A stretch of DNA of 64,000 nt. It comes from Streptomyces celluloflavus (GTDB lineage Bacteria > Actinomycetota > Actinomycetes > Streptomycetales > Streptomycetaceae). Below are positions 18,711 to 42,335 of this stretch, piece after piece. A program made the position numbers and the translations under genes. The notes beneath the pieces were generated by a model, which saw nothing but the letters and a program-made list of their open reading frames with translations, had not been told where the DNA came from and did not search any database. Each line of letters starts with the position of its first letter. Position 1 is the stretch's first letter. The DNA lies in contig JOEL01000003.1 of assembly GCA_000720995.1 (NCBI GenBank), forward strand, positions 186,001-250,000, read 5' to 3'.

Positions 18711-18744
18711 GGGACCAAAGTCCCCACCCCGGGACCAAAGTCAC
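18711..18744. promoter_or_regulatory. Two DevR/OsdR-like boxes upstream of nrdDG
   Basis: GGGACCAAAGTCCC (18711-18724) matches 13 of 14 positions of the core of the DevR/DosR consensus (GGGACTWWAGTCCC); GGGACCAAAGTCAC (18731-18744) matches 12. Their starts are exactly 20 bases apart, two helical turns, as for paired DevR sites. OsdR is the Streptomyces counterpart in hypoxia and development. The boxes stand upstream of the probable promoter, the position for activation. Confidence 0.65.
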
Positions 18745-18790
18745 CCAACATCTGGTGTCGGCGTGTCGCTCTACGCACCAGATGTAGTGT
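18743..18790. promoter_or_regulatory. Pair of NrdR-like boxes
   Basis: ACCCAACATCTGGTGT (18743-18758) and GCACCAGATGTAGTGT (18775-18790) match 11 and 12 of 16 positions of the NrdR consensus (ACACWATATATWGTGT type). Their starts are 32 bases apart, the roughly three-turn spacing found at NrdR-controlled RNR promoters. The second box covers the likely -10 region (TAGTGT at 18785-18790), which fits repression. Confidence 0.6.
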
Positions 18791-18792
18791 TG

Positions 18793-19000
18793 CGGCTGCC
18801 GGTTCGGCGACGCCCCTCGGGCCGTCGCCGAGGCAAGAGGGAACCCGGTGGGAATCCGGGACTGCCCCGCAGCGGTGAGCGGTAACGACCGCCGTCATCG
18901 AGCACTGGGTGTGCGCACCGTCGCACGCGGCCCGGGAAGCGACGGCCAGTAGGAGGACACCCGGATGTCCGTGACCACGAGTCCGAAGACCTGCCGGCCA
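18793..19000 (+). ncRNA. Cobalamin riboswitch
   Basis: The conserved parts occur in order: GGAACCCGGTGGGAATCCGG, then ACTGCCCCGCAGCGGTGA (the B12 box and its neighbour), CACTGGGTG, CCCGGGAAGCGACGGCCAGT and GAGTCCGAAGACCTGCCGGC at the 3' end. The outer helix can form between GCCGG near 18796 and CCGGC at 18993-18997. It lies directly upstream of nrdD and should lower nrdDG expression when adenosylcobalamin is plentiful, as known for other B12-independent RNRs in Streptomyces. Confidence 0.95.
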
Positions 19001-19053
19001 CGCCGCACACGTCCGTGCGCGGCGGATTCCCGATGCCTCGTGGGAGGGCTGAC

Positions 19054-20841
19054 GTGACCGCAGTCGACGCCGTCGATACCGTGACCGAATACCTGGAGCG
19101 CCGTGACTGGCGCGTCAACGCCAACGCCAATCAGGGCTATTCGCTGGGCGGCCTGATCCTCAACACGGCGGGCAAGCTCATCGCCAACTACTGGCTGGAC
19201 CAGGTCTATCCGCCCGCCGTCGGCCACGCCCACCGGACCGGCGAACTGCACATCCACGATCTCGACATGCTCTCCGGCTACTGCGCGGGCTGGTCGCTGC
19301 GCACCCTGCTCGCCGAGGGACTGGGCGGGGTACCGGGCCAGATCGACTCGGCCCCGCCGCGCCACTTCTCGTCCGCCGTGGGCCAGATCGTCAACTTCCT
19401 GGGCACGTTGCAGAACGAATGGGCCGGCGCCCAGGCGTTCAGCTCCTTCGACACCTGCATGGCGCCCTACGTCCGCCTCGACGCGATGACGTACGAGCAG
19501 GTCAGGCAGTGCATCCAGGAAATGGTGCACAACCTGAACGTACCGGCCCGCTGGGGCACCCAGACGCCGTTCACCAACCTCACCTTCGACTGGACCTGCC
19601 CCGCCGACCTGCGCGCGGAGGTACCCGTCATCGGCGGCGAAGAGGCGCCCTTCACCTACGGGGACCTCCAGGCGGAGATGGACCTGATCAACCGCGCGTA
19701 CATCGAGGTCATGACCGAGGGCGACGCCTCGGGACGGGTCTTCACCTTCCCCATCCCCACGTACAACATCACCGCGGACTTCCCCTGGGAGAGCGAGAAC
19801 GCCGAGCGGCTGTTCGCCATGACCGCCAAGTACGGGCTGCCGTACTTCCAGAACTTCATCAACTCCGAGCTGTCCCCGCACCAGATCCGCTCGATGTGCT
19901 GCCGCCTCCAGCTGGACCTCACCGAACTGCTCAAACGCGGCAACGGGCTCTTCGGCAGCGCGGAACAGACCGGTTCGCTGGGTGTGGTCACCGTCAACTG
20001 CGCACGTCTGGGCCATCTGCACGCCGGCGACGAGGCCGCGCTCCTCACCGACCTCGACCGGCTCCTGGAACTCGCCCGGGACAGCCTGGAGATCAAGCGC
20101 GTCACCGTGCAGGGGCTGATCGACGACGGTCTCTACCCGTACACCAAGCGCTATCTCGGAACGCTGCGCAACCACTTCTCGACCATCGGCGTCAACGGCA
20201 TCAACGAAATGATCCGCAACTTCACCGCAGACGCCCACGACATCACCAGCCCCGAAGGCCACGCGCTGGCGGTACGGCTGCTGGACCACATACGGGCCCG
20301 GATGGTGACGTTCCAGGAGGAGACCGGCCACCTCTACAACCTGGAGGCCACCCCCGCCGAAGGCGCCACCTACCGGTTCGCCAAGGAGGACCGCCGCCGC
20401 TTCCCCGGCATCCGGCAAGCGGGCACGGCCGACCGCCCCTACTACACCAACTCCTCCCAGCTGCCCGTCGGCTGGACCGACGACCCGTTCCAGGCCCTGG
20501 AGATGCAGGACGAACTCCAGCGCAAGTACACCGGCGGCACCGTGCTGCACCTGTACATGTCCGAGCGGATCTCCACCGCCGACGCCTGCCGGCGCCTCGT
20601 ACGCCGGTCACTGGAACGCTTCTCGCTCCCCTATCTCACGGTCACCCCGGCCTTCTCCCTCTGCCCCGGACACGGCTATCTGTCCGGCGAGCACACCACC
20701 TGCCCGCGGTGCGGCGAAGACTGCGAGGTATGGACCCGGGTCATGGGCTACCACCGCCCCGTCTCCTCCTTCAACATCGGCAAGAAGGGCGAGCACGCCG
20801 AACGCCTGCCCTTCCGCGAGGCCGCCGGGGCCGGCGCGTGA
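19054..20841 (+). CDS. nrdD: Anaerobic (class III) ribonucleoside-triphosphate reductase
   Basis: A glycyl-radical enzyme reducing ribonucleoside triphosphates to deoxyribonucleotides without oxygen. GTG 19054 follows GGGAGG; an upstream in-frame ATG is less favourable. The 595 residues resemble compact NrdD proteins of the Thermotoga type: the frame begins straight with the barrel (DWRVNANANQGYSLGGLI, HIHDLDMLSGYC, FSSFDTCMAPY), so an N-terminal ATP-cone is absent. The C-terminus has the four-Cys zinc site (CPGHGY and CPRCGEDC) and the radical glycine, Gly565, in WTRVMGYHRP. It overlaps nrdG by four bases. Confidence 0.93.
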   Translation: MTAVDAVDTVTEYLERRDWRVNANANQGYSLGGLILNTAGKLIANYWLDQVYPPAVGHAHRTGELHIHDLDMLSGYCAGWSLRTLLAEGLGGVPGQIDSAPPRHFSSAVGQIVNFLGTLQNEWAGAQAFSSFDTCMAPYVRLDAMTYEQVRQCIQEMVHNLNVPARWGTQTPFTNLTFDWTCPADLRAEVPVIGGEEAPFTYGDLQAEMDLINRAYIEVMTEGDASGRVFTFPIPTYNITADFPWESENAERLFAMTAKYGLPYFQNFINSELSPHQIRSMCCRLQLDLTELLKRGNGLFGSAEQTGSLGVVTVNCARLGHLHAGDEAALLTDLDRLLELARDSLEIKRVTVQGLIDDGLYPYTKRYLGTLRNHFSTIGVNGINEMIRNFTADAHDITSPEGHALAVRLLDHIRARMVTFQEETGHLYNLEATPAEGATYRFAKEDRRRFPGIRQAGTADRPYYTNSSQLPVGWTDDPFQALEMQDELQRKYTGGTVLHLYMSERISTADACRRLVRRSLERFSLPYLTVTPAFSLCPGHGYLSGEHTTCPRCGEDCEVWTRVMGYHRPVSSFNIGKKGEHAERLPFREAAGAGA

Positions 20842-21488
20842 TACGGATCGGCGGCTGGTCCCGGCTCTCCACCTGCGACTGGCCGGGCCGGCTGGTCACC
20901 ACCGTCTTCTGCCAGGGCTGCCCGTGGCGCTGCGGCTACTGCCACAACCCGGAGCTGCTGCCGGTCCGCGCGGCGGCACCGGTGCCCTGGCGGACGGTCA
21001 CCGACCACCTGACCCGGCGCCGCGGACTGCTGGACGGCGTCGTCTTCTCGGGCGGCGAGCCCCTGCTCCAGCCGGACCTGGCGACCGCCCTGCGCGAGGT
21101 CCGCGCGCTCGGCTTCGCCACCGGACTGCACACGGGCGGCGCCTTCCCGCGCCGCTTCGCACAGCTCCTCGCGGCCGGCCTGGTGGACTGGGTCGGCTTC
21201 GACGTGAAGGCCACCCCCGACGCGTACGAGAAGGTCACCGGCGTCCGCAACAGCGCCCGGCCCGCGCAGCGCAGCCTGCGCCTGCTGCTCGACTCCGGCA
21301 CCGCGCACCAGCTCCGTACGACGGTCGATCCGGCCCTCCTCGACGAGGCGGAGTTCACCGCTCTCGAACGGTGGCTGGCCGCACAGGGCGCCCGTGGACA
21401 CGTCCGCCAGGAGGCCCGGCCCGAGGGCCAGTCCGTCGGTCCGCGGCCCTCCCCCACGGCGGAGCGGGCCAGGAGGCCGGGCGGCTGA
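20838..21488 (+). CDS. nrdG: Class III RNR activating radical-SAM protein
   Basis: Generates the glycyl radical on NrdD from S-adenosylmethionine and an iron-sulfur cluster. GTG 20838 overlaps the nrdD stop (GTGA), indicating translational coupling. Motifs: the cluster ligands CPWRCGYC (CX3CX2C), the SAM-binding GGE in VVFSGGEPLLQP, and VDWVGFDVKATPDAYEKVTG. The last ~30 of its 216 residues are a Pro/Arg-rich tail not expected of the family and may be dispensable. Confidence 0.92.
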   Translation: MIRIGGWSRLSTCDWPGRLVTTVFCQGCPWRCGYCHNPELLPVRAAAPVPWRTVTDHLTRRRGLLDGVVFSGGEPLLQPDLATALREVRALGFATGLHTGGAFPRRFAQLLAAGLVDWVGFDVKATPDAYEKVTGVRNSARPAQRSLRLLLDSGTAHQLRTTVDPALLDEAEFTALERWLAAQGARGHVRQEARPEGQSVGPRPSPTAERARRPGG

Positions 21489-22268
21489 TCCCGCTCGGCG
21501 GCGGTACGGGGCGGGACGGCCGTCGGTGGGGCCGGTCGGATGGCCGTCGGCCGGGCCGGCAGGTGGCGTCCGTACGGGGTGATCCGCACCATGTCGCGTC
21601 GGCGGTTCGCGGGGCCGGGTTACGGCTCCCGCCGCCCCCGCGCTGTTGTCCCGGCCCATAGTGGTCGGGACAGCAGTCCCTACGCCCGCCCCTCGCGGAT
21701 GGCCGGCCACGGCCGCCGCGGCTCCGGCGTCCGGCGTCCGGCGAGCACCCCGGCACCCCGGCACCCCGGCACCCCGGCACCCCGGCACCCGGGCACCCCG
21801 GCACCCCGGCACCCCGGCATCAACGGCCCCACCGGACCCGGAGCCACGTCGCTCAGACACCCCGATCACCTGCGAAGTGTCCGTCGCGTCCCTCCTATCC
21901 CTCGTATCCCTATCGACTCCTTTCGGCCGCTTTTCCTGCCCACGCGCCCACCGCCCTCGTATGCCTGTCGCACACCCCTCGCGCGCACCCTGGCGGCTCT
22001 GGCGCGCCGCCACCCCGACCAGCCTGTCGCCGCACGGCGGACCCCCGGCGCGAAATCAAGTCAAGGTCAACCCCTCGCACCGGAAGCTACTTTCCGGAAT
22101 CAGACGATCACATGTAGCGTTCATTCGGACCGAAGCTACGACTGCGTCGCCACGTCACGGCCGGGAGGACGCGGGGCCGTGGGCGTTGCGGCACATCCCG
22201 CTCCGCCCGTCGGACACCACCATGTCTGTCCGTACACGCCTGCTTTGCAAGAGGAATGGGCCCAGACC
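21489..22268. other. 780-base gene-free interval with repeats
   Basis: Contains an octamer tandem repeat (21746-21817). The stretch from about 22040 to 22140 has lower GC and short symmetric elements (GGAAGCTACTTTCC) that probably carry the promoter of the winged-helix gene. The long open frames across it on both strands follow the repeat and look non-coding. Confidence 0.5.
21746..21817. repeat. Nine tandem copies of CACCCCGG
   Basis: The octamer CACCCCGG is repeated nine times without gaps; the sixth copy is CACCCGGG. It is flanked on the left by two copies of a GCGTCCG-like unit. It lies in an intergenic space and could vary in copy number by slippage. Confidence 0.9.
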
Positions 22269-42321: not shown

Positions 42322-42335
42322 GGGACTTTAGTCCT
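42322..42335. promoter_or_regulatory. DevR/OsdR-like box upstream of the hydrolase operon
   Basis: GGGACTTTAGTCCT matches 13 of 14 positions of the core DevR consensus and lies about 122 bases before the 67-aa ORF, in an AT-rich stretch between two minus-strand genes. It could also act as a short hairpin after DUF3224. Confidence 0.45.

Follow-up and report, generated by a model that had tools for sequence, protein, structure and literature searches.

The window (the whole 64,000-nucleotide stretch of Streptomyces celluloflavus DNA analyzed here) contains nrdD and nrdG, and both a series of putative control elements and a long leader precede the first of these genes. NrdD scores above the curated cut-offs of TIGR02487 and NF006126 and NrdG above that of TIGR02495, which places the pair in the class III (anaerobic) ribonucleotide reductases (RNRs). 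The parts of the locus are the following, in coordinates of the window:

18711..18724, no strand assigned: distal DevR-type box GGGACCAAAGTCCC, its half-sites forming a perfect palindrome
18731..18744, no strand assigned: proximal DevR-type box GGGACCAAAGTCAC, beginning 12 bp 5′ of NrdR box 1
18743..18758, no strand assigned: NrdR box 1, ACCCAACATCTGGTGT
18775..18790, no strand assigned: NrdR box 2, GCACCAGATGTAGTGT, with a 16-bp spacer to box 1
18785..18790, plus strand: TAGTGT within NrdR box 2, a candidate -10 element, invariant in 8/8 Streptomyces loci
18785..19012, plus strand: cobalamin (B12) riboswitch aptamer, RF00174, full model length, 84.8 bits
19035..19049, plus strand: GCCTCGTGGGAGGGC, ribosome-binding region plus a short complementary CCTC arm, invariant in 8/8 Streptomyces loci
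19054..20841, plus strand: nrdD, class III (anaerobic) RNR of 595 aa, GTG start at 19054 (TIGR02487, NF006126)
20838..21488, plus strand: nrdG, radical-SAM activase (TIGR02495)

The starts of the two DevR-type boxes are 20 bp apart and those of the NrdR boxes 32 bp, and the proximal DevR-type 14-mer shares 2 bp with NrdR box 1. This proximal box is imperfect: its right half, GTCAC, is common to the NrdR box. An initial annotation, made from the letters alone, had claimed a pair of DevR/OsdR-like boxes 20 bases apart, a pair of NrdR-like boxes 32 bases apart that overlaps the former, and a complete cobalamin riboswitch ahead of nrdDG. All of these elements are confirmed between 18711 and 19053: the DevR-type boxes at 18711 and 18731, the NrdR boxes at 18743 and 18775 with the 2-bp overlap, and the riboswitch as a match to model positions 1–189 of 189 (E 1.9e-19), its 84.8 bits standing far above the gathering score of 31.5.

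Class III reductase genes are rare in the genus, nrdD being present in 6 of 392 Streptomyces genomes, the window's own included. A megablast search against plasmids matched 6 records, none from Streptomyces, and a distant plasmid search counted 18 Streptomyces records, none of them among the 20 matches listed. A domain scan of the window's NrdD did not find the ATP-cone (PF03477), a common, not obligatory, feature of class III enzymes; the one other NrdD scanned, from Actinotalea (L012), has it.

The genome search for an NrdR gene that the initial annotation had proposed located nrdR beside nrdJ, the gene of a class II RNR (C28); an NrdR box closely precedes nrdR-nrdJ, and by domain scan the NrdR protein consists of Zn_ribbon_NrdR and an ATP-cone. 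A class I nrdA-type gene (C51) is preceded by weak NrdR-type boxes, matching at 12 and 10 of 16 positions, and by a borderline riboswitch (31.8 bits, gathering score 31.5). Within the 300–400 bp searched 5′ of nrdR-nrdJ and of the nrdA-type gene no DevR-type box is present (best match 10/14), so that among the three RNR operons the hypoxia-type layer lies on class III alone. As for the vitamin itself, CobG of the oxygen-dependent B12 route is encoded, with a score above cut-off, and so is CbiD of the anaerobic route (C60 and C37). The idea that B12 is made solely by the oxygen-dependent route, anoxia itself thereby relieving the riboswitch, is not supported because CbiD is present alongside CobG.

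RF00174 scores above its gathering threshold in 8/8 Streptomyces nrdD loci, and the nrdDG leader is predicted to be an adenosylcobalamin-responsive riboswitch that would act in the direction proposed below. In Streptomyces the riboswitch leader extends close to the nrdD start codon. Folding points to GCCTCGTGGGAGGGC as a possible expression platform acting on translation, with a direction of switching that we infer; among the eight Streptomyces leaders and that of Kineosporia, open and closed states were not resolved in all, and folding gave no clear B12-free open state. A consensus scan of the region found neither a sigma-70 promoter nor a terminator, and TAGTGT in NrdR box 2 is put forward, by inference only, as a candidate -10 element.

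The main support for the boxes comes from conservation. Eight distinct Streptomyces nrdD loci—the window's own, L009, L010, L011 (= L107), L105, L106, L108, and L109—were obtained from the 392-genome genus sample and three named genomes. In 8/8 of them the proximal DevR-type site (score 11–14 of 14) begins exactly 12 bp 5′ of NrdR box 1, with 32 bp between the starts of the two NrdR boxes, counts that are not independent, as the eight NrdD proteins form one related group (a single change on the tree accounts for all eight, on a branch with support 63/1). A distal DevR-type site of at least 11/14 is found 20–34 bp 5′ of the proximal one in 7/8 loci; L106 has none, its single DevR-type box being imperfect. 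Across the eight loci the boxes are better conserved than the sequence separating the two NrdR boxes: mean pairwise identity reaches 0.82 in the proximal site and 0.77 in each of the NrdR boxes, against 0.48 in that spacer (0.80, 0.76, 0.76, and 0.56 when four representatives are compared). The single 12-bp register of the proximal box in all eight loci constitutes strong evidence for the predicted sites. Spacers of 15–17 bp gave the strongest NrdR binding in the available text of PMC12051234, and the 16-bp spacer of the 8/8 loci falls within this range, so that the spacing is that expected of an NrdR site.

Evidence for the DevR-type box from the genome as a whole is weaker. Exact GGGACYWWRGTCCC occurs at 9 places, and with at most one mismatch at 29 places versus 13 for the reversed control. 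The search patterns for both regulators were adapted from what we take to be their consensus sequences, GGGAC-N4-GTCCC presumably being that of DevR. The NrdR pattern, with at most 2 mismatches, has 4 sites in the 8.68-Mb genome versus 2 for its control; two of the four are the nrdDG pair and one is the site just upstream of nrdR-nrdJ. In the window, GGGACNNNNGTCCC with at most 2 mismatches is found 67 times, which is rarer than in shuffles (mean 110), and its perfect matches number two, at 18711 and 21667. The latter, a second perfect GGGAC-N4-GTCCC palindrome (GGGACAGCAGTCCC, 21667–21680), lies downstream of nrdG, where short GC-rich repeats, by eye RHPGTPAP-like units in the reading frames, extend from ~21680 to 21790. 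A further DevR-type box of the window, GGGACTTTAGTCCT at 42322–42335, is flanked by the genes of a DUF3224 protein and an NlpC/P60 protein.

Elsewhere in the genome, exact GGGACYWWRGTCCC is located 107 bp upstream of narG (C23), which is represented by a partial protein that matches the NCBIfam narG model below its cut-off. The same sequence is also found at the genes for a NarL-type regulator (C16, discussed below), a Na:alanine symporter (C26), and an S13-like H2TH protein (C2), and some of its other places show no clear gene family. One-mismatch sites include a pyridoxamine-oxidase-like gene beside the DevR paralog on C17 (see below) and a class II aldolase gene.

Beyond the genus, 80 nrdD loci with up to 900 bp of upstream sequence were compared, 19 of them titled actinobacteria (16 non-Streptomyces) and 61 others. 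A match to GGGACYNNRGTCCC at 13 or more of 14 positions is present upstream of 13/19 actinobacterial loci (10/16 non-Streptomyces) versus 1/61 others—a group in which some upstreams are short (e.g., L069, ~100 bases), which reduces the chance of a match, and in which L015 is counted by its title, Proteobacteria, yet groups with actinobacterial NrdD in the tree. At 12 or more of 14 the counts are 17/19 and 5/61. Nineteen palindromes with permuted half-sites reached at most 3/19 at the stricter threshold and up to 11/19 at the looser one. The DevR-type box lies 41–43 bp 5′ of NrdR box 1 in 9/16 non-Streptomyces loci and at 55 and 57 bp in L020 and L024; L012 and L016 were left out of the spacing comparison since their scripted NrdR pair is probably spurious. 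In a class-level sample of four further loci besides the window's own, L128 has the box and three loci of one genus are without it.

A plus-strand riboswitch is found upstream of nrdD in 3/16 non-Streptomyces loci (L017, L027, and L053), none of which has a DevR-type box at 13/14 or better, and hence in this sample the full three-element stack is seen solely in Streptomyces. In L017, from Kineosporia, a degenerate AGGACCAACATCCT near NrdR box 1 can be called neither way, and in Actinotalea fermentans a cobalamin riboswitch upstream of nrdD lies on the opposite strand (L012:2222-2364, minus). To judge from this small sample, actinobacterial nrdDG may at first have been under DevR-type and NrdR control, the B12 riboswitch being a later addition. 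Since L027, L053, and Propionibacterium (Cutibacterium) acnes have riboswitches too, this layer has probably been gained or lost more than once.

Two close candidates for the DevR-family regulator are encoded in the genome. The search for an OsdR/DevR gene, likewise proposed at the outset, yielded a close DevR/OsdR relative at C23:70373-71077 (best PDB match 3c3w, DevR, E 2.1e-78). A histidine kinase with two GAF domains, the first of them a match to the DevS GAF (2vzw, E 7.6e-46), is encoded ~2.7 kb from it. The features of a DevR/DosR-type regulon are present at the level of sequence, namely GGGAC-N4-GTCCC-type palindromes upstream, an encoded DevR-family regulator, and an encoded DevS-like GAF kinase. 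A second DevR paralog, an orphan, is located on C17 (3c3w, E 6.5e-74) and adjoins genes encoding, by eye, E1/E2-type dehydrogenase subunits; assuming synteny with the bkd genes, we take it to be the probable ortholog of SCO3818. The orphan SCO3818 is phosphorylated by OsdK, as described in the available parts of PMC5069765 and PMC9739842. Strict searches across 61 genomes sampled from the genus recovered the paralog in 45/61 and the OsdR type in 41/61.

The two regulators differ in the palindromes found at their loci. Among the 30 best-scoring loci of each search, which are mutually related, perfect GGGAC-N4-GTCCC is present in 22/30 of the orphan-paralog loci versus 0/30 of the OsdR-type loci, and perfect GGGCC-N4-GGCCC in 2/30 versus 22/30; permuted-motif controls reach at most 4/30 and 8/30, respectively. 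With one mismatch allowed the separation is largely lost (GGGAC, 29 paralog and 11 OsdR-type loci; GGGCC, 27 and 28), and the controls rise likewise. The recognition helix reads LAEKTIKNYVS in 30/30 best-scoring paralogs, as compared with LAEKTVKNYVS in DevR; H or N occupies the place of the Tyr in 28/28 readable OsdR-type proteins among the best 30, two of which were not read.

OsdR (the SCO0204 type), which the initial annotation had named, is an unlikely yet still serious candidate for the activator of nrdDG. A close relative is encoded with a DevS-like kinase nearby, some sites published for S. coelicolor are of mixed form, for example AGGGACCTTCGGCCCC, which precedes narG2, and the proximal site of L105 fits OsdR well (matrix score 12.74), so that the regulator assigned may differ between species. 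Scored with a matrix derived from 25 OsdR sites in the literature, however, the nrdDG boxes of the window reach 10.09 and 3.32 and fall below every one of those sites, whose minimum is 11.66; of 276,283 positions scanned, 39 equal or beat the former score and 820 the latter. Both boxes are thus a poor match to the motif of the OsdR regulon, and perfect GGGAC-N4-GTCCC is missing from all 30 best OsdR-type loci, which carry a different perfect palindrome. Moreover, a close OsdR-type match (at least 76%) is missing from G257 and G763, both of which have nrdD and the box; the 61–63% paralog is present in these two and in the remaining nrdD genomes (nine handles for eight distinct genomes, TBY4 appearing twice). 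The naming of OsdR is therefore not upheld. Being of the GGGAC type and poor in OsdR matrix score, the boxes are assigned to the orphan paralog, which appears, with moderate confidence, the likelier regulator.

A different NarL-family response regulator might bind the boxes instead, for which the third such protein found, L092 (C16), is the obvious example: a perfect DevR-type box, GGGACTTTGGTCCC, stands 146 bp upstream of the start of its own gene, and its best PDB match is again DevR (E 2e-38). This match is far weaker than that of the two paralogs, though, and its recognition helix, QASVKTYVS, departs from that of DevR, which makes such an assignment very improbable. By eye, the L092 gene adjoins NRPS genes. 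Hardly more probable is the possibility that the NrdR boxes and the riboswitch function alone, as in described nrdAB and nrdDG leaders, and that the DevR-type palindromes reflect chance or another GC-rich motif. The genome is GC-rich, sites with at most one mismatch are only about twice as frequent as the control, and the window holds fewer near-matches than its shuffles do. Chance is nevertheless hard to reconcile with the fixed 12-bp register in Streptomyces, with the excess of the box at actinobacterial nrdD loci over the other loci and over permuted half-sites, and with its occurrence before nrdD in genera where no riboswitch was found there.

It seems probable, on the preferred reading, that nrdDG is an anaerobic reserve RNR under three stacked controls exerted by a DevR-family regulator, NrdR, and a B12 riboswitch. 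A phosphorylated DevR-family response regulator would bind the two GGGAC-type boxes and activate transcription at low oxygen or NO; the likelier activator would be the orphan paralog, fed by the DevS-like GAF kinase (OsdK) with its predicted heme/oxygen signal, rather than OsdR. NrdR with dATP and ATP would bind both of its boxes across the promoter and repress. Repressor and activator are probably mutually exclusive at the proximal site because NrdR box 1 overlaps it. In the leader, the riboswitch would lower expression when adenosylcobalamin, the cofactor of NrdJ, is available, via GCCTCGTGGGAGGGC at the ribosome-binding site. A reasonable logical reading is that expression would be gated by low oxygen and short dNTP supply and scarce B12. 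The repair program for oxygen-starved mycelium or spores that the initial annotation also proposed goes beyond what these results support.

A wider proposal, which we advance tentatively and hold to be possible rather than probable, is that Streptomyces divided an ancestral DevR dormancy response between two regulons with distinct codes: OsdR would use GGGCC-N4-GGCCC, and the OsdK-fed orphan would retain GGGAC-N4-GTCCC, the code of mycobacterial type, to drive genes of anaerobic maintenance, among them nrdDG and probably narG. The proximal site of nrdDG, fused to an NrdR box, would form an activator/repressor gate before the B12 riboswitch that requires hypoxia together with low dATP and low B12. 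If true, oxygen, deoxynucleotide supply, and a vitamin would all be sensed at one promoter, a compact natural gate in a genus for which aerobic culture is the rule. A little-understood orphan DevR paralog would gain a predicted DNA code and its first predicted targets, and the supply of DNA precursors to mycelium without oxygen would become a directly testable question. A two-code split of DevR paralogs was not met in the literature, where the search on this point was limited to SCO3818.

The nrdAB(S) class Ia operon of S. coelicolor carries a B12 riboswitch and resembles the window in that NrdR sites are followed by the riboswitch on a B12-independent RNR; the nrdA-type gene of the window's genome is a weaker likeness of this arrangement. 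In contrast to nrdDG, nrdAB(S) encodes an oxygen-requiring class Ia enzyme, and the copy in the window's genome is without a DevR-type box (best 10/14). NrdR binding at the S. coelicolor operon is documented in the accessible portion of PMC9110341. For the nrdDG leader of P. acnes, published work annotates a cobalamin riboswitch and predicts two NrdR boxes (PMC3848588). Besides this class III operon with its riboswitch and NrdR pair, P. acnes shares with the window's genome the possession of a class II RNR. Its NrdR boxes, however, are located a long way 3′ of the promoter in use there, those of the window directly precede the riboswitch, and the available text of PMC3848588 does not mention a DevR-type box. 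The initial annotation's claim that such integrated control is undescribed accordingly holds in part: riboswitch and NrdR boxes on nrdDG had been published, and a DevR-type box in addition to them was not encountered in the literature searched. Literature searches combining DosR, NrdD, and hypoxia, or NrdD, DevR, and dormancy, returned no paper.

Control of an RNR by DevR/DosR is itself known from M. tuberculosis, where nrdZ belongs to the DosR regulon (PMC4428469). In that case the enzyme is of class II and B12-dependent, and the accessible part of the same source does not mention an NrdR/riboswitch stack. S. coelicolor OsdKR and SCO3818 share with the system proposed here a DevS-like kinase, DevR-family regulators, and nitrate reductase among the predicted targets, but the OsdR motif given in the available parts of PMC5069765 and PMC9739842 is of the GGGCC type, and in the main text of PMC5069765 the terms "nrd" and "ribonucleotide" occur 0 times. 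The three-element combination, not met as such in the literature searched, is a variant built from individually known parts.
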